Source of the DNA: Neisseriaceae bacterium
GTDB lineage: Bacteria; Pseudomonadota; Gammaproteobacteria; Burkholderiales; UBA11063
Assembly: GCA_947454215.1 (NCBI GenBank)
Contig: CANGJN010000004.1
Span: forward strand, 1 to 12,956
Length of the DNA: 12,956 nt
Direction of reading: 5' to 3'
Shown piece by piece: positions 1 through 12,956 of this stretch. Position 1 is the first letter of the stretch. Each line of letters opens with the position of its first letter. Below the pieces are notes generated by a model. That model was not told where the DNA came from, did not search any database, and was given only the letters and a program-made list of their open reading frames with translations. Made by a program: the position numbers and the translations under genes.

Positions 1-303
1 AAGATGTATGTGAACGATTACTAAATAATTTTATTTTCAATTTTTTAGTTATTTTAGGTACTTTAGTATCAAAAATATTGTTTAAATTAATTAAAATTTA
101 CTATACTTAATAGAGATAAAATTATAAATTATTTACCTAGTTAGTATTTAAATCATTGATATCACTTTAATTATCTTTTAAATTTGCTATATACGATAAA
201 CTAAAAACATAATGAATATGCATTACTAAAATATTATTAATTATTTAACATTCTAATAATAATTTAGAAATAGAAGGTTCAATATTAAATTATTAGATTT
301 TAT
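1..303. other. AT-rich intergenic stretch, no gene seen
   Basis: I find no convincing coding frame, tRNA or GC-rich structure here. The only structure is an imperfect inverted repeat close to the end of the glycosyltransferase gene, with arms at 257-266 and 286-295. It is made only of A and T and has no following T-run on the transcribed strand, so I do not call it a terminator. Confidence 0.5.
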
Positions 304-1173
304 CTATTTGATTAATTTAAAATGCTTTCTACTCCAATCAATATTATTAAATATTTTGCTAAGCAACATTTCAGCTCTATGTCGTATATCCTTTGATGTT
401 AATTTATAATTAGGATTAAGTATCAATTCTTTCTCAGCCTCCAAAATTAACCATTCTTTAATTATCTCAGGATGAGTTCCAGTAAATTTTTTTATAATAT
501 ATGGATCTATATTGCCATAAGTATAAAATTCCCCTTCAAGATTATTCCAATATTTTTCAACACGTTTATTTTTTTCATTCATACTATGAACACTTCTTAC
601 GTGACCATAATGATAAATATGAGAATCAATTAATGCCGCTCTTGGATATCTTCCTTTTTTATTTTTATCCATTACCACCCAAAATAATCCGTCAGGTGCC
701 CAAGATCTTATAGTATTCCTAATAATTCTTGGTGCTCTTCTATACCACTTTGGAGAACTAACTATCCAATTCTTAGCACCATAAAAATGATAATAATCAA
801 ATACTAAAGCTTCTATTTTGTGATTATGCAGATATTGATACATTTTATTTCTTATATTCTCATAATCATTCTCATGAATTATCTCATCACACTCTAAATA
901 AAAACACCAATCACCCGTACAATTATACTGTGCTATCATTTTTTGCTGAGCATAAACAAACCCTCTATCAACCATATTTTCATTCCATGTGGTTAATATT
1001 ATTTTTAAATTTGGATTATTTATTTTTGTAAGATTTTCAATAGTATGATCCTCACTTTTACCTACAGCAACCACTACCTCATCACAAACATTAAGTAAAG
1101 ACTTAATGCTTTGTAAAAAAGGATATCCCAATAAATTACCATTACGAATAAAGGTAAATCCACTAACTTTCAT
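304..1173 (-). CDS. Family-2-like (GT-A fold) glycosyltransferase
   Basis: A 289-residue protein that probably transfers a sugar from a nucleotide-sugar donor to a cell-surface or secreted glycan; the actual substrate is not visible. The N-terminal half looks like a GT-A Rossmann core. It has an initial strand (VSGFTFIRNG), a strand followed by an acidic loop (DEVVVAVGKSEDHT, about residues 32-45), and the motif DWCFYLECDE at about 88-97. ECDE there takes the place of the metal-binding DxD of family 2. Residues around 142-153 (KWYRRAPRIIRN) and the HIYHYGHVR segment near 185-193 resemble the acceptor side of bacterial family-2 enzymes. No signal peptide or membrane helix is evident, so a cytoplasmic or membrane-associated location is likely. 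The ATG is supported by an AGGAGAGG Shine-Dalgarno a few bases upstream. The gene stands alone, not in a visible polysaccharide cluster. The broad class is fairly secure; the specific reaction is unknown. Confidence 0.8.
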   Translation of the reverse strand: MKVSGFTFIRNGNLLGYPFLQSIKSLLNVCDEVVVAVGKSEDHTIENLTKINNPNLKIILTTWNENMVDRGFVYAQQKMIAQYNCTGDWCFYLECDEIIHENDYENIRNKMYQYLHNHKIEALVFDYYHFYGAKNWIVSSPKWYRRAPRIIRNTIRSWAPDGLFWVVMDKNKKGRYPRAALIDSHIYHYGHVRSVHSMNEKNKRVEKYWNNLEGEFYTYGNIDPYIIKKFTGTHPEIIKEWLILEAEKELILNPNYKLTSKDIRHRAEMLLSKIFNNIDWSRKHFKLIK

Positions 1174-1557
1174 ACCAAATACCTCTCCTTATATAGAAGA
1201 TATACAATAATTACTAAGAACTATATAAAATTTTATTTACAGCTATATTGGAATAATTTTGATTTATTCAATTGACATTATCTTTTAGCCTCTTACTCTT
1301 CAGATATAAATATTAATCAAGTACTTATAACAAGTGCAAGGTATTATAGAGAAAATCACAATAATATTTTAAACTAAAGATTTAAAACAATAACTACAAA
1401 GATTAACTCTACAAAGTAATTATTATTTAGCAGTAGTAATTAGATTTATATTATTGATTTTTTTATATAAACTATTTAAGTTACTTAATCGAATTTTTAC
1501 AAATATAGTGTAGATAAAATCTTGAGTTATATTTCCAAATCTAAGTATGCAAAATAG
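1174..1557. other. AT-rich intergenic stretch, no gene seen
   Basis: This lies between the kelch gene's stop codon and the glycosyltransferase start. Apart from the glycosyltransferase ribosome binding site (rc of about 1181-1190), I see no open frame with coding character, no RNA gene and no strong hairpin. The promoter of the glycosyltransferase presumably lies here, but I cannot choose a -35/-10 pair in such AT-rich sequence. Confidence 0.5.
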
Positions 1558-3839
1558 CTATATAATCCATAAGCCATTTAAATCCTGTGTACTACGTACA
1601 CCAAATAAATAAACATTACCTATTTGATCCTTCCACACTAAAGGATTAGATCTAACTGTAGGTAATGTGGCGATACATGAAGATGAAGTACATAATTGTG
1701 ACCACAGACCTGTTGCTATATTATACCTCCATAAATCATTTAGATTTACTCCATTATTTCCTCCAAATATATACGCATTTCCATTTCCATCTGTCCAAGC
1801 AACACTTCCAGACCTAGCTATTGGTAATGTGGAGATACATAATGATGAAGTACATAATTGTGACCACAGACCTGTTGCTATATTATACCTCCATAAATCA
1901 TTTAGATTTACTCCATTATTTCCTCCAAATATATACGCATTTCCACTATTATCTGTCCAAGATACACTTCCAGATCTAGCCGTAGGTAATGTGGCGATAC
2001 ATGAAGATGAGGTACATAATTGTGACCATGCCCCTTTTGCTATATTATACCTCCATAAATCATTTAGATTTACTCCATTATTTCCTCCAAATATATACGC
2101 ATTCCCACTATTATCTGTCCAAGATACACTTAGCTGTCTTGCAACTGGTGCACATAAAGAACATAACTCTATCCATTTATTTGAGGATATATTGTATTGC
2201 AATAAATCATTTAAATAACCACTACTAGCCAAACCACCAAATAAATAAGAATTTCCATTATTGTCTGTCCATGAAACACCACCAGACCTTATTGAAGGTA
2301 AACTATTTGAACAAGGATTACATAATTGATGCCATGTTCCTGAACTTTGTAAAGAAACTTCAGGAGAGTATTTCCATAAATCATTTAAATAACCGAATCC
2401 ACTGCCAGAAAAGACATAGCCATTGCCATCAGGATCACTCCATGCAACGGCATCATTTCTTCCAAATGGAAGACAAGAAGAACACAACTCTACCCATGTT
2501 CCAGCAGAAATATCGTATTCCCATAAATCATTTAAATCATTAGTACCATTAAAACCACCATATACATAGGCTTTACCACTCTTATCTATCCAGGCAACAC
2601 CATATGCTCCTGCTGGTGGTCCACATGAAGAACATATTTCAACCCATAATCCTAAGGTTTTATCTGTCGATGATGGTTTATATTTCCATAAATCATTTAA
2701 ATACCTAAACTGATTATCTTTATCAACTCCATAACCTCCAAAAATATAACCATTGCCATCATTATCTCTCCATGAAACAGAGCCCCACCTTAATGGAACT
2801 TTAGAACAATAACTGCATAATTGTGTCCATAATCCTAATGTTCCAGTTTTACTTGATGGAGTATATATCCAGAAATCATTAAGAGGATAACCCTTACTGC
2901 CACTAAATATATATACATTACCATCTCTATCTGTCCAAGAAGTACTGGAAACTCTGCCTTCTGGTCCGCAGGTCGAACATAATTGTATCCATTTCCATTA
3001 CTATCTACCCATGTTAGACCAAGTTTTCTTGGCGATGGCAAATCACCAGTTATATTTATTAATGTCCATTGTGTCGTTTTTATATCATATCTCCATAGGT
3101 CATTATAATAAACTATATTTCCATTCCAATCAACTCTAAAACCACCAAATATATAAGCATTTCCATTCTTATCTGTCCATGAAGATGTAGAACTTCTTAC
3201 TGGAATTGGTTGTGAATTAATCTGCTTAAAGACAGAAGTTATACAATTAATAGATAAATTTAAGTTACTAGTTATTACCCCTGTTAATGGAACATTGTTC
3301 TGACATTTTTTATAATCTATACCAGTATAATTATAATCTAAATTTATAGTATAAGGATTATTTAAAGACAACAACTTAGGAAACGATTGAGTTGACAATG
3401 AGTTAGTAAGTGTTATTGAATTATTAAACTGCAATAAAGTTGCTATCATTGTCTCATTTTGATTTAAACCGTTAGTGCTAATTGTAATACTATATTTATC
3501 TTGACAAACTATTTCAATCTTTACATCTTGCATGAATACATAACCATTACTAGCTGTAGTTAATGGAATAGAGCATGATAAAGAGTTATCAGAAACTTGT
3601 AATGATAAAGAATACATATGTCTTGTGTTATCATTTACCTGATTTGGAAAAATAAAGTTTCCTACACTTGATATTTGTACGTCTCCAAAATTACCACTAG
3701 TATCAGTAACTGTTAATTTCCTGCCATGAAAACTAAAAGTTGTATCACTTGGACTTAATGATACAACTCCAGTAATTTTATAAGCAAATAATAGTTTACT
3801 AAATAATATAGTAAAAATATATAACATTAATTTTAACAT
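1558..3839 (-). pseudogene. Exported kelch-type beta-propeller protein, split by a frameshift
   Basis: One gene now read in two frames. The start is the ATG at 3839, behind an AGGGGA Shine-Dalgarno (3851-3846) with 6-base spacing. The first frame encodes a signal peptide (MLKLMLYIFTILFSKLLFA), about 190 residues of beta-rich N-terminal region (ITGVV..., cysteines in CSIPL and IVCQD), and the first kelch blade. It loses the kelch pattern after NGNGY (2993-2985) and runs on out of frame to a stop at 2835. The -1 frame is open without stops from TGG at 2991 to 1558 (477 residues) and carries all remaining blades. Eleven W-x-D-x2-G-N-x-Y units can be counted, each with LND(L/F)W downstream and most with a CxxC or CxxxxC pair. 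The last blade stops after LNGLWII, and its missing strand may be supplied by the N-terminal VFKQI segment (velcro closure). Such propellers usually bind ligands or sugars outside the cell; function here is unknown. The gene may be dead, or the N-terminal part may still be exported. Confidence 0.8.
1661..2146 (-). repeat. Three tandem 162-bp kelch-blade repeats
   Basis: Units begin at 1661, 1823 and 1985 (marker ggtaatgtgg), exactly 162 bp or 54 codons apart. They are nearly identical at the DNA level, including synonymous positions. The third unit diverges from about 2131. Each encodes one blade with WTDxxGNAYIFGG and LNDLWRYN. The other blades of the gene are much more diverged, so this is a recent amplification or is homogenised by recombination. 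Confidence 0.9.
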
Positions 3840-3925
3840 AAACAATCCCCTCTAATTGTTCATTAAAAATGTAATTCTTAAACAAAATTTTATTAATACC
3901 ATAAAATAATTAAATATCAGTAAAT

Positions 3926-3944
3926 CACTAAGTACTTCTTAGTG
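3926..3944. promoter_or_regulatory. Perfect hairpin upstream of the kelch gene
   Basis: CACTAAG (3926-3932) and CTTAGTG (3938-3944) form a 7-bp perfect stem with a 5-base loop. It lies about 87 bases upstream of the kelch ATG at 3839. There is no T-run on either side, so it is not an obvious terminator; an operator or leader hairpin is possible but unproven. Confidence 0.3.
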
Positions 3945-3999
3945 TTAGTGCAATTTAAAAGAAAAATAAATAATAAACTATCTAGACTTATAGTTTAGA

Positions 4000-4027
4000 A
4001 ACACCCCCACGTACATGGGGAAGACTT
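4000..4027. repeat. Solitary CRISPR-repeat-like palindrome (type I-E-like)
   Basis: A short GC-rich island in very AT-rich sequence. CCCCACG and its partner ATGGGG form an imperfect palindrome (CCCC 4005-4008 with GGGG 4017-4020, A4009 with T4016, one C/A mismatch, G4011 with C4014), followed by AAGAC. The length (about 27-28), the CCCC/GGGG stem and the GGGGAAGAC end resemble type I-E CRISPR repeats of proteobacteria. There is only one copy and there are no cas genes in the window, so it could be a relic, an orphan repeat or a chance palindrome. Strand is not assigned. Confidence 0.35.
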
Positions 4028-4194
4028 CGCTGGTATAACGTATATCGCATGTATTTACATTTTTAAATTTTATTATAAAAATTTGAAGTTGAATATAGAA
4101 ACTTATCTAAATTTAATAAACCATCTTTATTAAGTAATAACACACTAATTTATATATTATCTTAATAAATAAAAAACTAAAGATTGATAAACAA

Positions 4195-4214
4195 CCAATT
4201 CAACTATGAATTGG
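4195..4214 (-). terminator. Candidate terminator downstream of infC
   Basis: CCAATTC (4195-4201) and GAATTGG (4208-4214) form a 7-bp perfect stem with a 6-base loop, 19 bases past the infC stop codon. On the minus strand the stem is followed by TTGTTTATC, a weak U-tract. Position and symmetry fit an end of the thrS-infC transcript, but the stem is AT-rich and the tract is poor. Confidence 0.45.
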
Positions 4215-4232
4215 CATTAATATTTCTATATA

Positions 4233-4763
4233 TTAATTTCCCTTTTTTTTTGGAGCCACTACCATTACTGCATTACGACCATCTATTTTAGGAAGTTGTT
4301 CAACAACTGTTTCATTTATTAAATCATTTTTTGCTTTTTCTAGATAATTTAAGCCTAACTCTTGATGTGCCATTTCTCTTCCTCTAAACTGCACAACTAT
4401 TTTTACCTTATCTCCATCTTCCAGAAATCTTCTTACACTTCTCATTTTTATTTGATAATCATGATCATCTGTTACAGGTCTTAATTTAATTTCTTTGAGA
4501 TGAACCTGTTTTTGTTTCATTTTAATTTCATGTGCTTTTTTTTGTTCACGATATTTATATTTACCAAAATCCATTATTTTACAAACTGGAGGATTAGCAT
4601 TTGCAGATATCTCTACTAAATCTAAATTTAATTCTTCAGCTCGGCTCAAAGCCTCTCTAATAGATATTACTCCCAACTGTTCACTAGTATCCTCAATAAT
4701 AACTCTAACTTCTTTTGCAGTAATCATACTATTAATTCTTACTTGCATTTTTTCTGTACTTAT
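4233..4763 (-). CDS. infC: Translation initiation factor IF-3 (non-ATG start)
   Basis: IF-3 binds the 30S subunit, keeps it apart from 50S and checks the start codon and initiator tRNA. With the start chosen here it is 176 residues, the usual length. The N-terminal domain contains [12 protein letters not shown] and [23 protein letters not shown] lysine-rich linker ([14 protein letters not shown]) leads to the C-terminal domain with [14 protein letters not shown] and the IF-3 signature [17 protein letters not shown]. The first ATG (4748) has no ribosome binding site at a usable distance. An AAGGAG at 4775-4770 lies 6 bases upstream of an in-frame ATA (4763-4761), giving (M)[10 protein letters not shown]. 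That matches the short extension before RIN in homologues. An ATT at 4769-4767 is also in frame but abuts the Shine-Dalgarno. Rare AUU-type starts on infC are the known basis of IF-3 autoregulation. thrS lies immediately upstream; rpmI and rplT do not follow. Confidence 0.95.
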
Positions 4764-4775
4764 AGCAATCTCCTT
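4761..4775 (-). promoter_or_regulatory. Shine-Dalgarno and ATA start codon of infC
   Basis: AAGGAG at 4775-4770, six bases (ATTGCT), then ATA at 4763-4761. The next in-frame ATG lies 21 bases from the Shine-Dalgarno, too far for normal initiation. In E. coli infC starts at AUU and IF-3 represses its own translation by rejecting that codon; the same logic is inferred here for AUA. Confidence 0.7.
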
Positions 4776-4792
4776 ATTAAAAATTTTAAAAT

Positions 4793-6685
4793 TTATAGAT
4801 AATTCCTTATAAAATCATCTATGCTCATTGAACCAAGATCTTTACCATCCCTTAATCTAACCGTAACTAAGTTATTTTCTGTTTCTTTATCACCTATAAT
4901 TAATAAATATGGAATTTTTTTCAATGTTGTTTGCCTAATTTTATAACCAATTTTTTCATTAGAAATATCAATTAAAACTCTTATTCCATCTTTATTTAAT
5001 CTAGCAAAAACACCATTAGCATATTCACTTTGCTTTTCACTAATATTTAGTACTGCCACCTGAATTGGTGCTAACCATAATGGAAAAATCCCCATATGAT
5101 GTTCAATTAATATCCCAATAAATCTTTCTAATGAACCACATATGGCCCTATGAAGCATTACCGCTGTCTTCTTTTCTCCATCGACATTTATATACTCTGC
5201 ACCTAATCTATTAGGCATTGAAAAATCTAATTGGATAGAACCAGTAGTCCATTTTCTACCAATACAATCTTTAACCTCAAATTCAATTTTTGGTCCATAA
5301 AAAGCACCCTCTCCTGGCAAAATACTCCATTCTAACCCCTTAGTATTTAAGGCCTCAGCTAAAGAGTTCTCTGCTTTATCCCAAACATCATCAGTGCCAA
5401 TTCTTTTTACTGGACGAGTTGATAATTTAACTGCCACGCCTTGATTGAGAAGATCAAATTTACCATAAACTTCAAACAACATGTCTATAAAATTCATTAC
5501 TTCTACTTGTATTTGCTCTTCTGTACAAAAAATATGCCCATCATCTTGAGTGAATCCACGAACACGCATTAATCCATGTAAAGCTCCAGATGCCTCATTT
5601 CTATGACAAGAACCAAATTCAGCTAATCTAATTGGCAAATCTCGGTAACTAGTTATCCCTTGCTTATATATTTGTACATGACAGGGACAATTCATAGGTT
5701 TAATTGCATATTGACGTTTATCTGACTCTAAAGAAAAAATATCATCTTGAAATTTTTCCCAATGTCCTGATTTCTCCCAAAGAACTCTATCTAATAACTG
5801 TGGCGTCCTAACCTCTAAGTAACCATATTTTTTGTACATGCTTCTAATATATTGTTCTATTATTTGCCATAATGTCCACCCATTAGGATGCCAAAAAATC
5901 ATTCCTGGAGCTTCTTCTTGGATATGAAATAAATCTAACTGCTTACCTATCTTTCTATGATCTCTTTTTTCAGCCTCCTGAAGCATATTCAGATATGCAT
6001 CTAAATCATTTTTTGTAAACCATGCTGTACCATATATTCTCTGTAACATTTCATTATTAGAATCTCCCCTCCAATAAGCACCAGAAATTTTAGTTAATTT
6101 AAAATATCTTAATTTACTAGTGCTTGGCACATGTGGACCTCTACATAAGTCGGTAAAATCACCTTGCGTATATAATGATATTGTTTGATCTGCTGGTATT
6201 GAAGATATAATTTCAGCCTTATACTTTTCTCCTATAGATAAAAAATAATCTACAGCAGAATCTCTAGATAACTCTTTCCGTGAAATTTCAATATTCATAT
6301 CAACTAGATGAGACATTTTTTTTTCAATTTCTCTCAAGTCATCAGGAGTAAATGGTCTTTCATAACTAAAATCATAATAAAAACCATTTTCAATAACAGG
6401 GCCAATAGTAACTTGGGCTGTTGGAAATAAACATTTTACAGCATGTGCTAATAAATGAGCCGCCGAATGTCTAATAATATCTAAGGCTATTGGTTCCTTA
6501 TCAGTTATTAATTTTAAAGAACAGTCTTGAGATATTATATAACTTGTATCCTTAATCTCATCATTTACAAAGGCTGCAATTATTGACTTTGATAAACTTG
6601 GACTAATATCTTTAGCTATACTTAAAACACTAATCGGATTTGAAAAACTACGTTCTGTATTATCCGGTAATACAATTTTTACCAT
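4793..6685 (-). CDS. thrS: Threonyl-tRNA synthetase
   Basis: Charges tRNA-Thr with threonine in the cytoplasm and hydrolyses mischarged seryl-tRNA-Thr. It has 630 residues, close to the usual 640. An N-terminal TGS domain (about 1-62) is followed by the editing domain with H73 and H77 (HSAAHLLAH) and C181/H185 (CRGPHVPS). The class II catalytic core contains motif 2 ([11 protein letters not shown], Arg362) and motif 3 (GSLERF, Arg521). Zinc ligands C333, H384 and H512 are all present. The anticodon-binding domain occupies about 535-630. An unusual Cys (C335) replaces the common Gly in the MNCPGH zinc-site motif. I chose the ATG at 6685 because AAAAGG (6697-6692) lies 6 bases upstream. An in-frame TTG at 6700 would overlap that site. 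The stop is about 18 bases from the infC Shine-Dalgarno, so the two genes are almost certainly cotranscribed. Confidence 0.97.
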
Positions 6686-6752
6686 TATCAACCTTTTCAA
6701 AAAATATAAATTATCTTATTAGAACAATTTCTATATAAAATCCTTTTAAAAT

Positions 6753-6766
6753 TAATACTAGTATTA
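6753..6766. promoter_or_regulatory. 14-bp perfect palindrome in the thrS leader
   Basis: TAATACTAGTATTA is a perfect palindrome 68 bases upstream of the thrS ATG. It could be an operator or part of a leader structure. In DNA this rich in A and T, such palindromes also arise by chance, so the call is weak. Confidence 0.2.
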
Positions 6767-6848
6767 TTTAATCAATAAAAACAAATTTTTTTATAGACAC
6801 AAATTAAATAATTAATGAATCAATTTTAAGTTACAACTTTAAATAAAA

Positions 6849-8396
6849 TTATTTTAGAAGAATGCAATCAATAGTATCTAAACATTTTTTTCCACGAGTA
6901 CACTCCCCCACTCGTTTACAATAAAAATCTAAATCAACTAAACTAAAATCTTTTACTGACTCTGATTTGGACTTAAATATTAATCTTTTCTGTTCATCTT
7001 CGCATTTATCAAAATAATAATAACCTGAAGATAACTCCCAATTTCTTTGAGTGTGAAGTTTATTATATAAATATAATTTATCATTAATATAGGACATATA
7101 ATATAAATCCAAACGATGACTAAAAAATACTTCTCTTATTCTAGAAGAAAACTTAGCATAATCTTTACAACTACTTACTTTATATTTCCTGTATGGATCA
7201 TGCTGTAAATCTTCATATGTTACAGTAAGAATAGTGGTAACTTTATCTGATTCTCTATAATAAATATCTAAATTAGCTAAATTAAAAGTTTTGTCTGGTT
7301 TTGATTCAGACTTAAATATTAATTGACTTCCGTAGCATTTATCAAAATAGTAATAATCTGAAGATAATTCCCAATTACTTTGAGCGGTAAAAGATTTAGT
7401 ATATAAATATAATTTCCCATTAATATAGGACATATGATATAAACTTAGATGATGACTAAAAAATACTCCACTCTTTCCAGAAAAAAACTTATCATAATCA
7501 TCACATTTTGTTACTGAATATTTCTTGTATGGATCATGCTTTAAATCTTCAAGTGTTACAGTAAGAGTAGTGGAAACTTTATCTAATTCTCTGTTATCGA
7601 AAAACCTAAGATTTCTTAACATAAAAAATTTATCAACAATCTTTTGTTGTTCTCTTGAACCAAACGGATGAACTGCAAATTTTAATTTATTGTCTTCACA
7701 ACCTGAGTAGAAAGCTAGTCCTTTATAAAAAGATTCATGACCATTCGGTTGTTTAACTGCAACAAAAATATCTTCTTTAAGTTCTTCTCCCAAAATTTCT
7801 TCATTTATATTAATCCCAAAAAGTTGATTATTACCAAAATTATTAGAAATTTTAAAATAATTCTCGGAAGACTCAAAAGGGATAATATCTTTTCTATCAA
7901 AATATTTTTGAAATTCACTACAACTCTCAAAAGATTCAATAACTTCTGGTTTTGCAAATAAACTACTATTCGGTAATTTAGAAGTATATGGTTGTACAAA
8001 TTCTAATTTTGGTTGAAAAAATCTAGCTTGCCTAATACCTACTTCAAGTAAGTTAGTAGAAACTTTTTTATTTTTAAAATAAATTATATTTCTTGAACAT
8101 TGTTCTAATTCAAAGCCAATGTTGGTTAATTTATTTCCTCTACTTGTATATGAAAAAACGTTGCTTCCACTTTTCGACAATTTAATAGCATAGTAATCTG
8201 AACTACCCTCTTTGAAATTTTCAAAATAGACATTTCCATAAAAATTTAAATTACTTAAATTATCATTGAAACTATCACAGTTTGTAAAAACAGTTGGTAT
8301 AAATTTAGTTGTATCTTTTAATATAGATATATCTCTTATAAATCCATATGAAGTACTTACAAGTATTTGCAAAAAAATTAATATGCTTAATTTCAT
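6849..8396 (-). CDS. Secreted protein of four cysteine-pair modules
   Basis: I do not recognise a named family. The protein has 515 residues with a signal peptide (MKLSILIFLQILVSTSYG, probable cleavage near residue 18), so it is exported. Four modules follow, each opening with C-x2-F/Y and closing with a second Cys, then IxF and LxxLxF(F/Y). The pairs are C40/C100, C159/C233, C298/C354 and C410/C465. Modules 3 and 4 are near-copies offset by 111 residues. A short tail holds four more cysteines (C493, C499, C505, C510). The layout matches the 9414, 10905 and 12250 genes: IRD near the mature N-terminus, YYAI in module 1, then FFQP or FFKP and VQP or IQP. It is therefore a divergent relative of that tandem array. 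Paired cysteines suggest disulfides outside the cytoplasm. The ATG has AAAAGG (8410-8405) 8 bases upstream. No catalytic motif or membrane anchor is evident; a surface or effector role is only inference. Confidence 0.85.
   Translation of the reverse strand: MKLSILIFLQILVSTSYGFIRDISILKDTTKFIPTVFTNCDSFNDNLSNLNFYGNVYFENFKEGSSDYYAIKLSKSGSNVFSYTSRGNKLTNIGFELEQCSRNIIYFKNKKVSTNLLEVGIRQARFFQPKLEFVQPYTSKLPNSSLFAKPEVIESFESCSEFQKYFDRKDIIPFESSENYFKISNNFGNNQLFGININEEILGEELKEDIFVAVKQPNGHESFYKGLAFYSGCEDNKLKFAVHPFGSREQQKIVDKFFMLRNLRFFDNRELDKVSTTLTVTLEDLKHDPYKKYSVTKCDDYDKFFSGKSGVFFSHHLSLYHMSYINGKLYLYTKSFTAQSNWELSSDYYYFDKCYGSQLIFKSESKPDKTFNLANLDIYYRESDKVTTILTVTYEDLQHDPYRKYKVSSCKDYAKFSSRIREVFFSHRLDLYYMSYINDKLYLYNKLHTQRNWELSSGYYYFDKCEDEQKRLIFKSKSESVKDFSLVDLDFYCKRVGECTRGKKCLDTIDCILLK
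6930..7570 (-). repeat. 333-bp direct duplication encoding modules 3 and 4
   Basis: Two blocks inside the 6849-8396 gene match at an offset of 333 bp (111 codons); for example gcatttatcaaaata occurs at 7002 and at 7335. Both encode DL(K/Q)HDPY(K/R)KY, C(D/K)DY, NWELSS and YYYFDKC. Only scattered substitutions separate them, so the duplication is more recent than modules 1 and 2. Outer boundaries are approximate. Confidence 0.85.
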
Positions 8397-8832
8397 AAAA
8401 AAATCCTTTTAATATTTATTATTTTAACATCCACAAAAAAATCAATTAACTTTTGGAATGATAAATTATATTTTAATTTTAACATAATAGAACTCTTTTT
8501 TCAATTAAATATAAAATTAAAAATCTTATTAAATAATTTTGATTTAATATTATATTTTAATTTAATTTTACATAATAAATATACCAAATTTAACATGCCT
8601 TTTGCTAAATATTATCTTTACTTTAACATTGCTCTGTAACTTTAGTATTTTTGTTTACAGTTTACTGTGATTTAATAGGTTCCTATATTCTTATACTATT
8701 GTTATAAATTTATTTTCTAATGCTCTATCATAACTTAGCGGTAAAACAACATTGCAATAATCTTAAATATTAGTCTTAATTTTTTTTGTCTTATTACTTT
8801 TCTTAGCGATCATTAATATAGATGATTACATT

Positions 8833-8916
8833 TTATTTACCACGACTAATCACAACATAAATTTGATTAAAATTAAATCCCTTACTAATATCAGCATGAT
8901 AACTCACATGAATCTG
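8833..8916 (-). pseudogene. Possible remnant of a helicase C-terminus
   Basis: Read on the minus strand, a short frame ending at 8833 encodes SKGFNFNQIYVVISRG followed by a stop. The pattern resembles motifs V-VI of superfamily 1 helicases such as RecD or Pif1 (SQGxTFDxVYVALSRG). A shifted frame just beyond the stop reads NVIIYIND, which would continue the same motif region. There is no start codon or upstream domain. The match is short and could be chance. Confidence 0.2.
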
Positions 8917-9100
8917 ATTTTTCTGTATCTGTGTTGTGAAGAGTATTACTAATTTACCTTTTGTACAATATATTAAAATGAATATTATATTAAATCTTAT
9001 AATGTAAGAAACTAAATTTAGTTTAAGCGTAAATTAAATTCAAGGTATGGATAATTTAAAAAGATTTTAAAATTAGTGTTTATCAACTTTTTTTAAATTA

Positions 9101-9283
9101 TGTTACTACTCAGCAGTAGTTAATGCATTGATATCATTAAATTATTTTTTTAGAAAATTTTCAAGTTAATTTTAAATATCCACATTATTAAAGCATGTTT
9201 AAATTTAATATAACTAATAATCAACCAATTAATTTATTAATATTTCAAATAACACAATATGTTATGTGCTGCTGAGTAGTAAC
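9101..9283. mobile_element. MITE-like element with 15-bp inverted repeats
   Basis: GTTACTACTCAGCAG at 9102-9116 is repeated exactly in inverse at 9269-9283. The element is flanked by a 7-bp direct repeat, TAAATTA, at 9094-9100 and 9284-9290, which fits a target-site duplication. The 183-bp interior has no coding frame. The arms stand out from the surrounding AT-rich sequence. This is the form of a miniature element moved in trans by a transposase elsewhere. The family is not recognised. Confidence 0.5.
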
Positions 9284-9413
9284 TAAATTACCTAAAAAGC
9301 ATATTAAATATTTTAAGATGTATAAACCTATATCATTTTACAATTTTAATCTATAATCATTAAATAGCCAAACTCCTAAATTTAAACAACTAAAAATTAC
9401 ATTTTTCTATACC

Positions 9414-10811
9414 TTAATTTGAGCCTTCCCTACCGCTTGCGATATCTTCCATTACACTGTCAACCTTTACATTATGATTGCGTGCTTCCCTACCGCTTGC
9501 GGTATCTTCCATTACCCGCTTTATAAGCCGCCCGTATGGCGGTACTTCCCTACCGCTTGCGATATCTTCCATTTCTATTTCTTTTGAACCTTGTAATAAA
9601 GGCATCTCATTATGATCATAAAAAAGTAAATCCTTTAATTCGAGAGCAACTTGAACACTTAAATTACTATCTTCTTGAAATCTCAATCTATCATTCTTAT
9701 TTTGCCCATCTGCAACTTGACAACCTACAAATAAATATGGAGTTGGATTTCTACGTGGTGCAAAACCTTCATGCCTATAGTTAATTCGTTGATATATCAA
9801 TAGATATGGTTTCTCTCTCAAATCTTCTGGTCCATATAAATTAACTTTCATAGCATGATAATATAGTTGTTCAGGGTCTCTTATATCTGAAAAATAAATA
9901 TAATTATCCAATATATTATTATGATTTTCTAAATATTGATTAAATTCTTTACAACTACTCAACCTCTTCATCAAATAAGGTTTAATTTGATGTAACTTTT
10001 TAGTTTTTGATTCAATGTTATAGAATGTGAAATTGGATAATTTCTGATATAGATCAACAGTTTTGCCATTTTGAATAGTTGTAAAATTTAATAGACCCTC
10101 GTCACAATAATTTTTGTATACTATTTTTCGATTATCTGTTGTGTCTCTCTTTTCATTCCAATAAAAACCAAAAGGCTCTGGTTTTAGAAGTAGATCATTC
10201 TGAGATCTTGGTTTAGGACGACTAGAATAAAGATAAGTATATCTAGCACAACCTTTCCACAAACAACTCTTAGTGAAGCCATTAGTTAATTTATTTTTGT
10301 AGATTACAAAACCCGTGGTACTTTCTTGTACAACTTTATCATCAAATTCTCCACAGCTTTTAACATTTTCAACTTTATTGGCATCTTCTAATTCAGGTGG
10401 CTGAATAAATCTATCCACAGGTTTAAAAAATTGTAATTCTTTTAACCTGAATATCAAAGATTTATGATCATTTTTAAAAGAAATAGCATCTTCTTTACAT
10501 CCTTCAAATGTACCTAAACTTGTAACATTTAGATCATATAATTTAAATGGAGCATAAGAATCATCAGTTGTACCTTGTAACCAATAAACTATTGCATAAT
10601 AGTTTCCACTTTTATCAACGAAATATTGACGATTATTTATTAAATATTGCAAATATTTTTCTTTAAACTGTTCGCATGTTTCTATTTTTTCTGTAGTAAA
10701 ATTTTTTTTATCTAATAAAACATTTTCATCACGAATATCGCCATTAGAATAATTTATCATCACAATTAATGTAAGAATAACTGTAACTATTTTATTTACT
10801 AAATTTAACAT
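9414..10811 (-). CDS. Secreted three-module cysteine-pair protein with repeat-derived tail
   Basis: Unrecognised family; 465 residues. A signal peptide (MLNLVNKIVTVILTLIVMINYSNG, about 1-24) indicates export. Three modules follow with Cys pairs C46/C105, C153/C236 and C287/C364, plus an extra pair C183/C188 in SCLWKGC of module 2. Each module ends in a LxxLxFF or FTFYN/LLFYD strand. The protein aligns along its length with its neighbours at 10905-12158 and 12250 onward, up to the shared (I/L)EM near residue 414. Beyond that point it has a private 52-residue tail encoded by three GC-rich repeats: VMEDIASGRE three times, each 20 residues apart, separated by unrelated 10-residue stretches. The ATG (10811) has AAGGA at 10823-10819. 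An (ATAAT)5 tract lies just upstream, over the likely -10 region. Even cysteine counts suggest disulfides. Whether it acts on host cells or in the envelope cannot be told. Confidence 0.85.
   Translation of the reverse strand: MLNLVNKIVTVILTLIVMINYSNGDIRDENVLLDKKNFTTEKIETCEQFKEKYLQYLINNRQYFVDKSGNYYAIVYWLQGTTDDSYAPFKLYDLNVTSLGTFEGCKEDAISFKNDHKSLIFRLKELQFFKPVDRFIQPPELEDANKVENVKSCGEFDDKVVQESTTGFVIYKNKLTNGFTKSCLWKGCARYTYLYSSRPKPRSQNDLLLKPEPFGFYWNEKRDTTDNRKIVYKNYCDEGLLNFTTIQNGKTVDLYQKLSNFTFYNIESKTKKLHQIKPYLMKRLSSCKEFNQYLENHNNILDNYIYFSDIRDPEQLYYHAMKVNLYGPEDLREKPYLLIYQRINYRHEGFAPRRNPTPYLFVGCQVADGQNKNDRLRFQEDSNLSVQVALELKDLLFYDHNEMPLLQGSKEIEMEDIASGREVPPYGRLIKRVMEDTASGREARNHNVKVDSVMEDIASGREGSN
9425..9573. 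repeat. CRISPR-like array: three 28-29-bp repeats at 60-bp period
   Basis: Copies at 9425-9453, 9485-9513 and 9545-9573 begin CTTCCCTACCGCTTGCG and end TCTTCCATT. The only difference between copies is one base (A at 9442 and 9562, G at 9502). The two 31-bp intervals share no similarity. The core of the middle copy, TACCGCTTGCGGTA, is a perfect palindrome. The array is far richer in GC than its surroundings. Repeat and interval sizes are those of a type I CRISPR, yet 60 bp is also 20 codons and the whole array is read in frame as the tail of the 9414-10811 gene. I recognise no CRISPR repeat family and there are no cas genes, so I call it a repeat rather than a CRISPR. Confidence 0.85.
9528..9542. 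other. GC-rich hairpin in the interval between repeats
   Basis: CCGCC (9528-9532) and GGCGG (9538-9542) form a strong stem around CGTAT. The right arm also overlaps GCGGTA (9539-9544), which can pair with TACCGC (9551-9556) inside the adjacent repeat. The array can therefore fold in alternative ways, as REP-like palindromic elements do. Confidence 0.6.
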
Positions 10812-10828
10812 TTAACAATCCTTATAAA

Positions 10829-10856
10829 ATATAATATAATATAATATAATATAATA
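10829..10856. repeat. ATAAT pentanucleotide microsatellite in promoter
   Basis: Five perfect ATAAT units occupy 10831-10855, with partial units on both sides. The tract lies 18-45 bases upstream of the 10811 start codon and overlaps the best -10 candidate (TATATT, 10853-10848). The corresponding gap before the paralogue at 12158 is 16 bases shorter, so unit number has changed between copies. Confidence 0.85.
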
Positions 10857-10908
10857 GAACTAGATCTATAACCAATATGATTGATATCAGATAAAGGCAA
10901 TAAATCAA
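10848..10908 (-). promoter_or_regulatory. Conserved intergenic block and likely promoter of the 9414-10811 gene
   Basis: Bases 10854-10908 match 12185-12239 with a single difference at 10867, at an offset of 1331 bp. On the minus strand TTGGTT (10875-10870), a 16-base spacer and TATATT (10853-10848) form a plausible sigma-70 promoter. The block begins next to the stop codon of the upstream paralogue. Near identity in a noncoding gap suggests either recent duplication or a preserved control region. Confidence 0.5.
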
Positions 10909-12158
10909 CTAGGATTCTTTTTCAGAACTTTCATTTCTAATCCTAAAGAACCTTCTGAATAAGGTGCATCAGCATCATAAAAGAGTAGTTCCTTTAATTC
11001 ACGAAAATATCTACCTCCATAACTACTATCGTCCACCTCATATATCAACTTGTCATTCTTAAATACTTGACTTTCACAACCTACAAATAACTCTATGAGT
11101 GAAACTGGGGCAAAACCATCATATTTAGAATTAATTTTTTTATACTTTAATAAATATGCTTTTTCCCTAGAATCTTCTGGCCCATATAAATTAACTTTCA
11201 TAGCATAATAAATTAAGTTTTTAGGATCTCTTGTACTAGAAAAATAAATATAACCATCCAAGATATTTTTATGATTTCTTAAATACTCTTCAAATTGCTT
11301 ACAAGTACTTAACTTCTTCGATAAATGTAATTCAACCTCCTCTAACCTTCTAGTTTTTGATTTAATGTTATAGAATGTGAAATTGGATAATTTCCAATAT
11401 TTAAGTTCACCAAGTTTGCCATTTTCACTAGTTATAAAATTTAATCTACCATCATCACAATTTTGGTATAATATTTTTTGATTATCTAAGGTACTCTTTT
11501 CCTCCCAATAAAAACCAAAAGGCTCTGGTCTTAGAAAGAGCTCATTTAGAGTTCTTGGTTTAGGAAGATTAGAATAAAGATAAGTATGTCTAGCACAACC
11601 TTTCCAAAAACAACTTTTAGTGAAGCCATTAGTTAATTTATTTTTGTAGATTACAAAACCAGTGGTACTTTCTTGTACAACTTTATCATTAAATTCTTCA
11701 CAGGTTTTAACATTTTCAACTTTATTGGCATCTTCTAATTCAGGTGGCTGAATAAATCTATCCACAGGTTTAAAAAAATGTAAGCCTTTTAACCCTAATT
11801 TCAAATGTTTATGACTACCTTCAAAAGAAATAAAACCATCTTTACATTCTTGAAATTCACCTGAGTATGTACCATCTAGTTCATATAATGTAAATGGAGC
11901 ATAGGTATCTTCAGTTGTACCATGTAACGAATAATGTATTACATAATAATTTCCACTTTTATCAACGAAATATAGATAATTATTTATTAAATATTGCGAA
12001 GATTCTTCTTTAAACTTTTTACATGTTTCTATTTCTTCGCTAGTAAATTTATCCTTATCTAATAAAACATTTTTATCAGGAATAAAGCCATTACAATTAT
12101 TTATCATTACAAATAATGTAAAAATAACTGTAATTATTTTATTTACTAAATTTAACAT
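10905..12158 (-). CDS. Secreted three-module cysteine-pair protein, paralogue 2
   Basis: Unrecognised family; 417 residues from the ATG at 12158, chosen because AAGGAG (12170-12165) lies 6 bases upstream and the resulting MLNLVNKI signal peptide matches the paralogue at 10811. Further in-frame codons reach back to 12311 but run into the intergenic block and the end of the next gene. It has a signal peptide of about 24 residues, then three Cys-pair modules with markers ETCKKF, KTCEEF and STCKQF opening them and LHFFKP, FTFYN and LLFYD closing them. SCFWKGC adds a Cys pair in module 2. It ends LEMKVLKKNPS, with no repeat tail. A central block (11612-11776) is almost identical in DNA to 10270-10430 of the neighbour, while flanking parts have diverged more. 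It probably arose by tandem duplication and shares the exported, disulfide-bonded character of the family. Molecular role unknown. Confidence 0.85.
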   Translation of the reverse strand: MLNLVNKIITVIFTLFVMINNCNGFIPDKNVLLDKDKFTSEEIETCKKFKEESSQYLINNYLYFVDKSGNYYVIHYSLHGTTEDTYAPFTLYELDGTYSGEFQECKDGFISFEGSHKHLKLGLKGLHFFKPVDRFIQPPELEDANKVENVKTCEEFNDKVVQESTTGFVIYKNKLTNGFTKSCFWKGCARHTYLYSNLPKPRTLNELFLRPEPFGFYWEEKSTLDNQKILYQNCDDGRLNFITSENGKLGELKYWKLSNFTFYNIKSKTRRLEEVELHLSKKLSTCKQFEEYLRNHKNILDGYIYFSSTRDPKNLIYYAMKVNLYGPEDSREKAYLLKYKKINSKYDGFAPVSLIELFVGCESQVFKNDKLIYEVDDSSYGGRYFRELKELLFYDADAPYSEGSLGLEMKVLKKNPS

Positions 12159-12171
12159 TTTACACTCCTTT

Positions 12172-12239
12172 ATATAATAATAAGATAGAACTAGATCCAT
12201 AACCAATATGATTGATATCAGATAAAGGCAATAAATCAA
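12172..12239 (-). promoter_or_regulatory. Conserved intergenic block and likely promoter of the 10905-12158 gene
   Basis: This is the counterpart of the block at 10854-10908, matching over 55 bases with one difference. TTGGTT lies in the same place and is followed after 17-18 bases by TTATTA/TATTAT, without the expanded microsatellite. The Shine-Dalgarno AAGGAG follows at 12170-12165. The block also overlaps the region just past the stop codon of the gene at 12250. Confidence 0.45.
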
Positions 12240-12249
12240 ATGTATTTTT

Positions 12250-12956
12250 TTAAGGAAACGTATGCATTTCAATTCCTGAAGCACCATCTGTGTAAAGTTC
12301 ATTTTCATCATAAAAGAGGAGGTCTCTTAATTCAAAATAAAATACCTCACTGGAATTACTGTCCAGATCGTACATCAACCTATCATTCTTATTTACCTTA
12401 TCTTTACCTTCACAACTTATAAATAACTCGATGCGTGTAACTGGGGCAAAACCTTTATGCGTAGAATTAATTTTTTTATAACCCAACAGGTATGGTCTCT
12501 CCCTAGAATCTTCTGGCCCATATAAATTAACTTTCATAGCATAATAAATTAATTTTCTAGGATTTCTTATACTAGAAAAATAAATGTAGCCATCCAAAAT
12601 ATACTTATCATATTTTAAATACTGATTAAATTCCTCACAAGTACTTAACTTCTTCCATAAATGTGGTTTAACCTCATCTAAACTTCTAGTTTTGGGTTTA
12701 ATATTATAAAATATTAAATTTGATAATTTATCGTATAGATCAACCCCTGTTGCCCAACTTTTATTTCTTATATAATGTAAATTTCCATCATAACAATTTT
12801 GGTATATAATTTTTGATTTATCTACATCATAATACTTTTCCTTCCAATAAAAACCAAAAGGATTAGGTATTAATGATTCTGTTGTAGGAGATTCAAAATA
12901 ATAATAATTATTTATCGCACAACCTTTCCACAAACAAACCCTACTAAAAAGATTAC
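12250..12956 (-). CDS. Secreted three-module cysteine-pair protein, paralogue 3 (5' end beyond the window)
   Basis: The frame is open from the window edge to the stop at 12250, giving about 235 residues of the C-terminal part; the start, signal peptide and module 1 lie outside. The first visible residues, NLFSRVCLWKGCA, align with GFTKSCLWKGCA at about residue 178 of the 10811 paralogue, so there is no reason to start at the nearby TTG. It contains the rest of module 2 (PFGFYW, YQNCYDG, LSNLIFYN) and all of module 3 (STCEEF, IYYAMKVNLYGPEDSRE, LLFYDENE), ending GIEMHTFP. It therefore supports the boundary at which the 9414-10811 gene gains its extra tail. Identity to paralogue 2 is lower than in the most conserved blocks between 1 and 2. 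Exported like its relatives, by inference. The tandem array may continue outside the window. Confidence 0.8.
   Translation of the reverse strand, partial: NLFSRVCLWKGCAINNYYYFESPTTESLIPNPFGFYWKEKYYDVDKSKIIYQNCYDGNLHYIRNKSWATGVDLYDKLSNLIFYNIKPKTRSLDEVKPHLWKKLSTCEEFNQYLKYDKYILDGYIYFSSIRNPRKLIYYAMKVNLYGPEDSRERPYLLGYKKINSTHKGFAPVTRIELFISCEGKDKVNKNDRLMYDLDSNSSEVFYFELRDLLFYDENELYTDGASGIEMHTFP

Follow-up and report, generated by a model that had tools for sequence, protein, structure and literature searches.

A translated repeat array with type I-F CRISPR geometry at the end of a gene in a Neisseriaceae bacterium

The last 52 codons of a gene from a Neisseriaceae bacterium contain three 28-nt repeats set at 60-bp spacing around two unrelated 32-nt intervals, the geometry of type I-F CRISPR arrays in other genomes of its genus. 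The gene lies in a stretch of 12,956 nucleotides (assembly GCA_947454215.1, contig CANGJN010000004.1, positions 1 to 12,956), referred to here as the window. That three repeats enclose two intervals is confirmed. For the resulting tail we tentatively propose a CRISPR-type array that is now dead and read as protein, produced most likely when type I-F spacers were integrated off target, twice, where the gene ends. Of the readings weighed below, the CRISPR-type one is the most economical, though only just.

A translated repeat array at the end of a gene

Three features reported by a first-pass annotation of the window were borne out: GC-rich, nearly identical repeats recurring at exactly 60 bp, two unrelated intervals between them, and an array in frame as the last 52 residues of a protein. 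The three copies of the repeat (ATGGAAGATAYCGCAAGCGGTAGGGAAG, minus strand) are 28 nt each and lie on the minus strand of the window at spacings of exactly 60 and 60 bp (Table 1). Copies A and C are identical over 28 nt, the middle copy B differs by one base, and the 31-nt versions of the repeat found by the tool begin at the same positions as the 28-nt copies. The two intervals agree at 9 of 32 positions, which is the chance level (7.9 +/- 2.4 after shuffling). While the intervals stand at chance identity, the repeats show no synonymous differences and a single nonsynonymous one; under free, even synonymous choice, the chance that eight codons would agree between A and C is about 7e-5. The array occupies residues 414 to 465 of the host open reading frame (ORF), the stop codon follows three codons (GSN) past copy C, and the other two frames of the same strand are interrupted by stop codons inside the tail.

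Table 1. Positions of the array, its host gene and other elements in the window
Feature	Position	Strand	Remarks
Host ORF, 465 aa	9414..10811	-	Hydrophobic N-terminus by eye; tail at C-terminus
Repeat copy A	9545..9572	-	ATGGAAGATATCGCAAGCGGTAGGGAAG; its ATG falls in the conserved EM of the family
Interval a	9513..9544	-	32 nt, 56% GC; codes VPPYGRLIKRV with the last base of copy A
I-F-repeat-like 28-mer	9520..9547	-	Overlaps interval a; 19/28 to nearest genus repeat; stem CCGCC/GGCGG
Repeat copy B	9485..9512	-	ACC for ATC; perfect TACCGC/GCGGTA dyad
Interval b	9453..9484	-	32 nt, 38% GC; codes ARNHNVKVDSV with the last base of copy B
Repeat copy C	9425..9452	-	Identical to A; then codons for GSN and stop
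Paralogue of host ORF	10905..12311		
Paralogue of host ORF	12250..12933		
Kelch-repeat protein (1558-3845), first ORF	2835..3845	-	162-bp tandem repeat in the protein
Kelch-repeat protein (1558-3845), second ORF	1558..2487	-	
MITE-like element	9103..9282		Inverted ends TTACTACTCAGCAG/CTGCTGAGTAGTAA

The host protein matches no Pfam family above its cut-off and is probably exported, to judge by eye from the hydrophobicity of its N-terminus. Two paralogues lie in the window and, with the host ORF included, seven places in its own assembly match the gene. No close relatives were found in 60 relatives or in named genomes, and a search with the host protein through 2,899 candidates returned six proteins at E <= 0.001, of which two come from the window itself. 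The tail is absent from every paralogue aligned. The paralogues do not stop at the shared EM, as had been supposed: seven distinct ones with this motif continue for 4 to 13 further residues. Across the family the C-terminal pattern is EM-x-x-hydrophobic (EMKVL, EMKDL, EMHTF, EMQYL), to which the start of copy A (EMEDI) conforms, and this fit weakly suggests that the repeat may have begun as native sequence. A diverged paralogue with in-frame stops, likely decayed, lies on contig C105 of the same assembly (locus L039, 2828-4112), and it ends in EMKDLSEKNYTDSTF, a sequence similar to that with which the tail of the host protein begins.

The assembly comprises 180 contigs and 945 kb and is 52% complete, and the sample scanned here (22 contigs and the window) covers 229,414 of its 945,430 bases. 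Among the 22,607 segments of 150 nt in these 229 kb, none is richer in GC than the array (0.507, with the next place at 0.44 and a mean of 0.267). Codon adaptation is 0.43 in the tail against 0.72 in the body of the gene, and 0.19 in interval a alone; a value as low as that of the tail occurs in only 1 of 1,030 ORF segments, a set that includes the window's own ORFs. Since only 1.6% of the genome's 28-mers match or exceed the GC content of the repeat, the repeat is somewhat unlikely to be native sequence.

Geometry shared with the type I-F arrays of the genus

Genomes of the same genus carry two kinds of array close to cas1, one with 36-nt repeats and a 66-bp period, the other with 28-nt repeats and a 60-bp period. 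The 28-nt repeats resemble Rfam CRISPR-DR4 and we take them to be type I-F; Csy3 adjoins these arrays at two loci (L060 and L061). Among 22 same-genus genomes, 7 have at least two I-F-repeat matches and 11 have Cas1. Spacer length is nearly constant: 62 of 63 spacers from three same-genus I-F arrays measure 32 nt (spacings of 80 or more dropped), as do 86 of the 87 distinct spacers collected at ten loci (spacings outside 58-62 dropped).

The window array shares with these arrays the 28-nt repeat, the 32-nt intervals, the 60-bp period and dyad symmetry. As in I-F repeats, the dyad of its repeat in plus-strand orientation ends at nt 20 and leaves 8 nt. Unlike the genus arrays, it is coding, its repeat is unrelated in sequence to I-F repeats (at best 12 of 28 positions, on either strand), and no Cas1, Csy3 or leader was found with it. 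When genus spacers are placed in the phase of the array, 97 of 172 placements are free of stop codons, so that the open frame puts no strain on a spacer origin. Interval a exceeds every one of the 87 genus spacers in GC content, and two spacers drawn at random reach the observed mean GC with p = 0.018.

The relic mini-CRISPR suggested at first pass is partly supported, by the 28/32/60 geometry of the genus arrays and by an I-F-like interval a. The search for cas genes proposed at first pass showed no Cas1 and no Csy3 in the assembly, which is 52% complete, and no canonical I-F repeat was seen there; the Csy3 search is an insensitive one, having found the gene in 2 of 15 same-genus genomes examined and missed it in 4 of the 6 among them with at least two I-F-repeat matches. 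The flank of the array is AT-rich; its similarity to genus I-F leaders, suggestive by eye, is not significant (GC-matched p of 0.17, 0.16, 0.63, 0.47 and 0.30 at 20, 30, 40, 60 and 70 nt), and nothing leader-like sets it apart from the genome at large.

An I-F-like segment in interval a

Where the window resembles an I-F repeat in sequence, unlike in the genus arrays, the likeness sits in interval a and not in the repeat. The segment is a 28-mer (Table 1) whose 5-bp stem is changed on both sides, CCGCC/GGCGG for CTGCC/GGCAG, and which keeps 7 of 8 handle letters, its last 8 nt being CTTATAAA against CTTAGAAA. Its identity to the nearest genus I-F repeat is the highest in 229 kb, shared with one other 28-mer, which lacks the stem. 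When the tail was shuffled 5000 times with dinucleotides preserved, 19/28 came up in 8 shuffles, and in 0 of 5000 together with an intact stem. The comparison is post hoc, prompted by a sub-threshold Rfam match of the segment (15.2 bits, E 1.7, gathering threshold 35).

With a covariance model built from five I-F repeats, the segment is the top hit, at 17.9 bits, with E 0.014 in 22 kb and 0.14 in 229 kb; the next hit scores 12.4 bits. Nine comparison loci, fetched by pattern searches, were scored with the same model, and only L068, an I-F-like unit in a viral contig, ranks higher (27 bits), the rest reaching at most 14.1.

The segment invites comparison with the solitary repeat units, or RNA anti-CRISPRs, described in PMC10651486. 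Like them, interval a holds an isolated I-F-like repeat; unlike them, its unit is degenerate (19/28) and sits inside a translated tail, on a contig with cellular genes (IF3 and threonyl-tRNA synthetase, by eye).

The CCGCC/GGCGG stem pattern occurs in six viral contigs, with units in L066 to L069 and in L071. In L067 (8675-8878) and L069 (3932-4075), I-F-variant repeats with such stems form viral 60-bp arrays, the latter with three I-F-variant repeats and a degenerate end repeat, and this type of stem therefore exists in I-F-like repeats. A further viral contig, L070, has a solitary similar hairpin with the same trailing letters, which could be an ordinary terminator-like hairpin.

Off-target spacer integration as a possible origin

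In the reading that we tentatively favor, a type I-F adaptation complex (Cas1-Cas2/3), such as other genomes of the genus carry, would have targeted 28 bp at the gene's end. Two integrations of a 32-nt DNA fragment, each duplicating the 28-bp site, would produce the order repeat-spacer-repeat-spacer-repeat. Each event would add 28 + 32 = 60 bp, and since this is exactly 20 codons the frame would be preserved; two events would add 40 codons, and the gene would have been kept because both fragments happened to lack stop codons in that phase. We infer Cas1-Cas2 to be the maker, the first copy to be native sequence of the gene, and the tail to be neutral and without CRISPR function.

The intervals differ in GC content (0.56 against 0.38), as independent fragments would. 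The silent positions of the repeat half are unchanged and the intervals unrelated, and chiefly for this reason we place a repeat-spacer mechanism a hair above a coding repeat; the silent-position argument draws on three copies and about nine codons. A bolder version, in which CRISPR adaptation machinery serves as a source of protein sequence, an I-F integrase extending the gene of an exported protein by foreign 32-nt fragments, each event adding an in-frame 20-residue module and one module here deriving from another I-F repeat on a mobile element, appears to us distinctly unlikely.

Spacers have reportedly been integrated at non-array genomic sites in work by Nivala et al. in 2018, which is cited in PMC11788318. 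Neo-CRISPR loci arising from such off-target Cas1-Cas2 integration would have duplicated target sites around unrelated, spacer-length fragments outside a canonical array, a layout that the array fits in its geometry; unlike them, it came with no adaptation machinery and no empty site that could be seen here, and its outcome is coding and in frame. An empty-site orthologue, with the repeat and without the intervals, was not found among named genomes, by protein search or in 60 relatives, and no natural, in-frame coding neo-CRISPR was recognized in searches of openly licensed papers.

The intervals had been expected to match phage or plasmid sequences if they were spacers. In blastn searches against phages or plasmids they have no match at E under 2, nor is there one in viral contigs, where two 17-mer hits extend to only 19 and 18 of 32 nt. 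The absence of spacer matches is weak evidence, because only roughly 10% of chromosomal spacers match known sequences, according to a review (PMC8616872). Interval b, with up to three mismatches allowed, is unique to this locus in 61 genomes (its own and 60 relatives), and the hairpin pattern of interval a, as distinct from the whole interval, has one other single match in 398 genomes. The translated tail has no tblastn match in phages; eight plasmid records at E 0.4-9 were judged to be chance.

If made by spacer integration, the tail would amount to a neo-CRISPR that arose in nature within a coding gene. It would show type I-F acquisition to be frame-neutral (60 bp = 20 codons) and thus able to add protein sequence without breaking genes. 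The usual unit of I-E arrays is 61 bp and hence not frame-neutral.

A coding tandem repeat as a possible origin

Nearly as plausible, and likewise doubtful, is an ordinary coding tandem repeat, in which a 20-residue unit would combine a constrained half (MEDIASGRE), homogenized by gene conversion, with a free half, in a variable C-terminal tail on an exported protein. The array is in frame, its unit is a multiple of three, and the paralogous family has varying C-termini, all of which are consistent with such a tail. In the same window, the kelch-type ORF carries a 162-bp repeat.

Coding tandem repeats had been thought rarely to pair a strictly conserved half with an unrelated one, and a scan of the 229,414 bases bears on this. 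It looked for 24-mers that recur at a distance of 40-200 bp and differ at no more than one position. With low-complexity hits dropped before the count, 22 hits were left, of which 3 are the array and 19 are other pairs. In 7 of these 19, cores of 24-53 nt are conserved and the rest of the unit has at most 35% ungapped identity, which makes the core-plus-unrelated look of the array less special and favors a coding repeat, coding having been judged by eye in L074 only. Among the remaining 12, one repeats the whole unit, and in the other 11 ungapped identity outside the core stays at about 44% or higher. Of the seven, L085 contributes a pair with two copies and L079 an offset hit; the other five are pairs of long period (162-174 bp). 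These five lie in the window's kelch ORF, L074 and L078, those of L074 being kelch-like by eye, and differences in unit length may put the rest of their units out of register. With a period of at most 100 and a low-identity rest of the unit, only the L085 pair (59 bp apart, 6 of 35 positions identical in the rest, no ORF of at least 60 aa listed there) and the L079 hit (an 81-bp offset hit, 17 of 48, within a 54-bp whole-unit repeat) stand beside the array in 229 kb. Units that pair a conserved core with diverged surroundings thus do exist in this genome. After this recount we lowered our confidence in spacer integration slightly and raised that in a coding repeat by as much.

The literature also lends weight to a coding repeat. 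In one survey (PMC7673337), most proteins with spaced peptide repeats are expected to be real, and a cas cluster lies near 791 of 133,357 tested; in another (PMC5294841), 1744 of 3224 false CRISPRs are classed as tandem repeats. The window array is comparable to the PARCEL coding repeats (PMC2996958) in being a tandem coding repeat with DNA dyad symmetry. PARCEL differs in its 25-residue motif, unrelated by eye, its variable copies and its wide distribution.

Against a coding repeat stand the constrained half without synonymous change beside another half at chance identity (9/32, with 7.9 expected), the GC content and codon usage of the tail, foreign to the genome, and a motif found in no other protein: of 37 candidates, all between 0.55 and 1.75 times as long as the host protein, the tail peptide matched none but its own. 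Simple duplication and divergence is disfavored, since divergence that left the intervals unrelated should also have altered silent sites in the repeat half; a coding repeat would require either gene conversion acting on that half alone or an assembly of parts in the very recent past. The modular tail envisaged at first pass is helped by the other repeats of the genome with a conserved core and diverged surroundings, and hindered by the lack of silent change. Should the array be a coding repeat, it would be an instructive false CRISPR, in which geometry alone cannot decide.

Foreign palindromic DNA as a possible source

Not far behind in likelihood, though doubted somewhat more, is that foreign GC-rich palindromic DNA, either a fragment of a CRISPR array from another organism or a cluster of REP/BIME- or RPE-like elements, was joined to the end of the gene in frame by illegitimate recombination at a short GNAATG-like microhomology. 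The array is the richest 150 nt in GC of the 229 kb, and copy A is preceded by the family's own GAAATG and the other copies by GTAATG. Hairpins are present in the repeat copies and in interval a, and the array folds with a z-score of -2.05 on the mRNA strand, where 6 of 200 shuffles did as well, and of -2.52 on the plus strand, where 3 of 200 did. Intragenic REP clusters coding for 43-82 residues, and REPs at the ends of ORFs, are described in PMC3733652. As with these and with the Rickettsia palindromic elements (PMC3733652 and PMC10969869), palindromic DNA of the window is read in frame as an added peptide; unlike them, the window repeat occupies a single locus, has no dispersed copies and keeps a regular 60-bp period.

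The repeat searches, which together covered 408 relatives, yielded no donor. In its own 945-kb assembly the repeat occurs only as the three array copies, with up to 2-3 mismatches allowed; the full 28-mer, with up to three mismatches, is confined to this locus among 61 genomes. A 24-nt core was searched in 399 genomes of the order and, besides the locus, has one single-copy match with three mismatches, in 1 of the 398 other genomes. In a collection of 84,980 genomes, the one exact match to a 20-mer of the repeat is a single copy in a Mycobacterium contig. An 18-mer has one match in viral contigs, and the 501 bases of that contig that were read hold no second copy. The repeat copies are not hit by any CRISPR family of Rfam.

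With the repeat at a single locus in its own assembly and one single match among relatives, a dispersed palindromic element was rejected, and the inserted element family that the first pass had listed among its options is not supported. Capture of a known CRISPR repeat has no support, fragments of the repeat being found elsewhere only as single copies in the Mycobacterium contig and the viral contig.

Finally, an artefact of assembly or library, such as a linker or chimera, might be suspected in an assembly of 180 contigs that is 52% complete, for a tail without a detected homologue, and is very improbable given that the frame is kept to a stop three codons after copy C, that two different intervals have equal length, that the copies are not all identical, and that the protein record lists two contigs, though possibly not independent ones.

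Other features of the window

The kelch-repeat protein of the window is encoded as two ORFs, which are possibly one gene split by a frameshift. Elsewhere in the genome, the near-identical 24-nt copies in L085 (4119-4201) lie between ORFs that resemble ribosomal proteins L1 and L10 by eye, and these copies may belong to an L10 leader. About 140 bp downstream of the array, the window also holds a MITE-like element; its end sequence has 0 occurrences in 22 other genomes, and its own genome has 0 occurrences of a reversed control and 25 of the end sequence itself, both ends counted.
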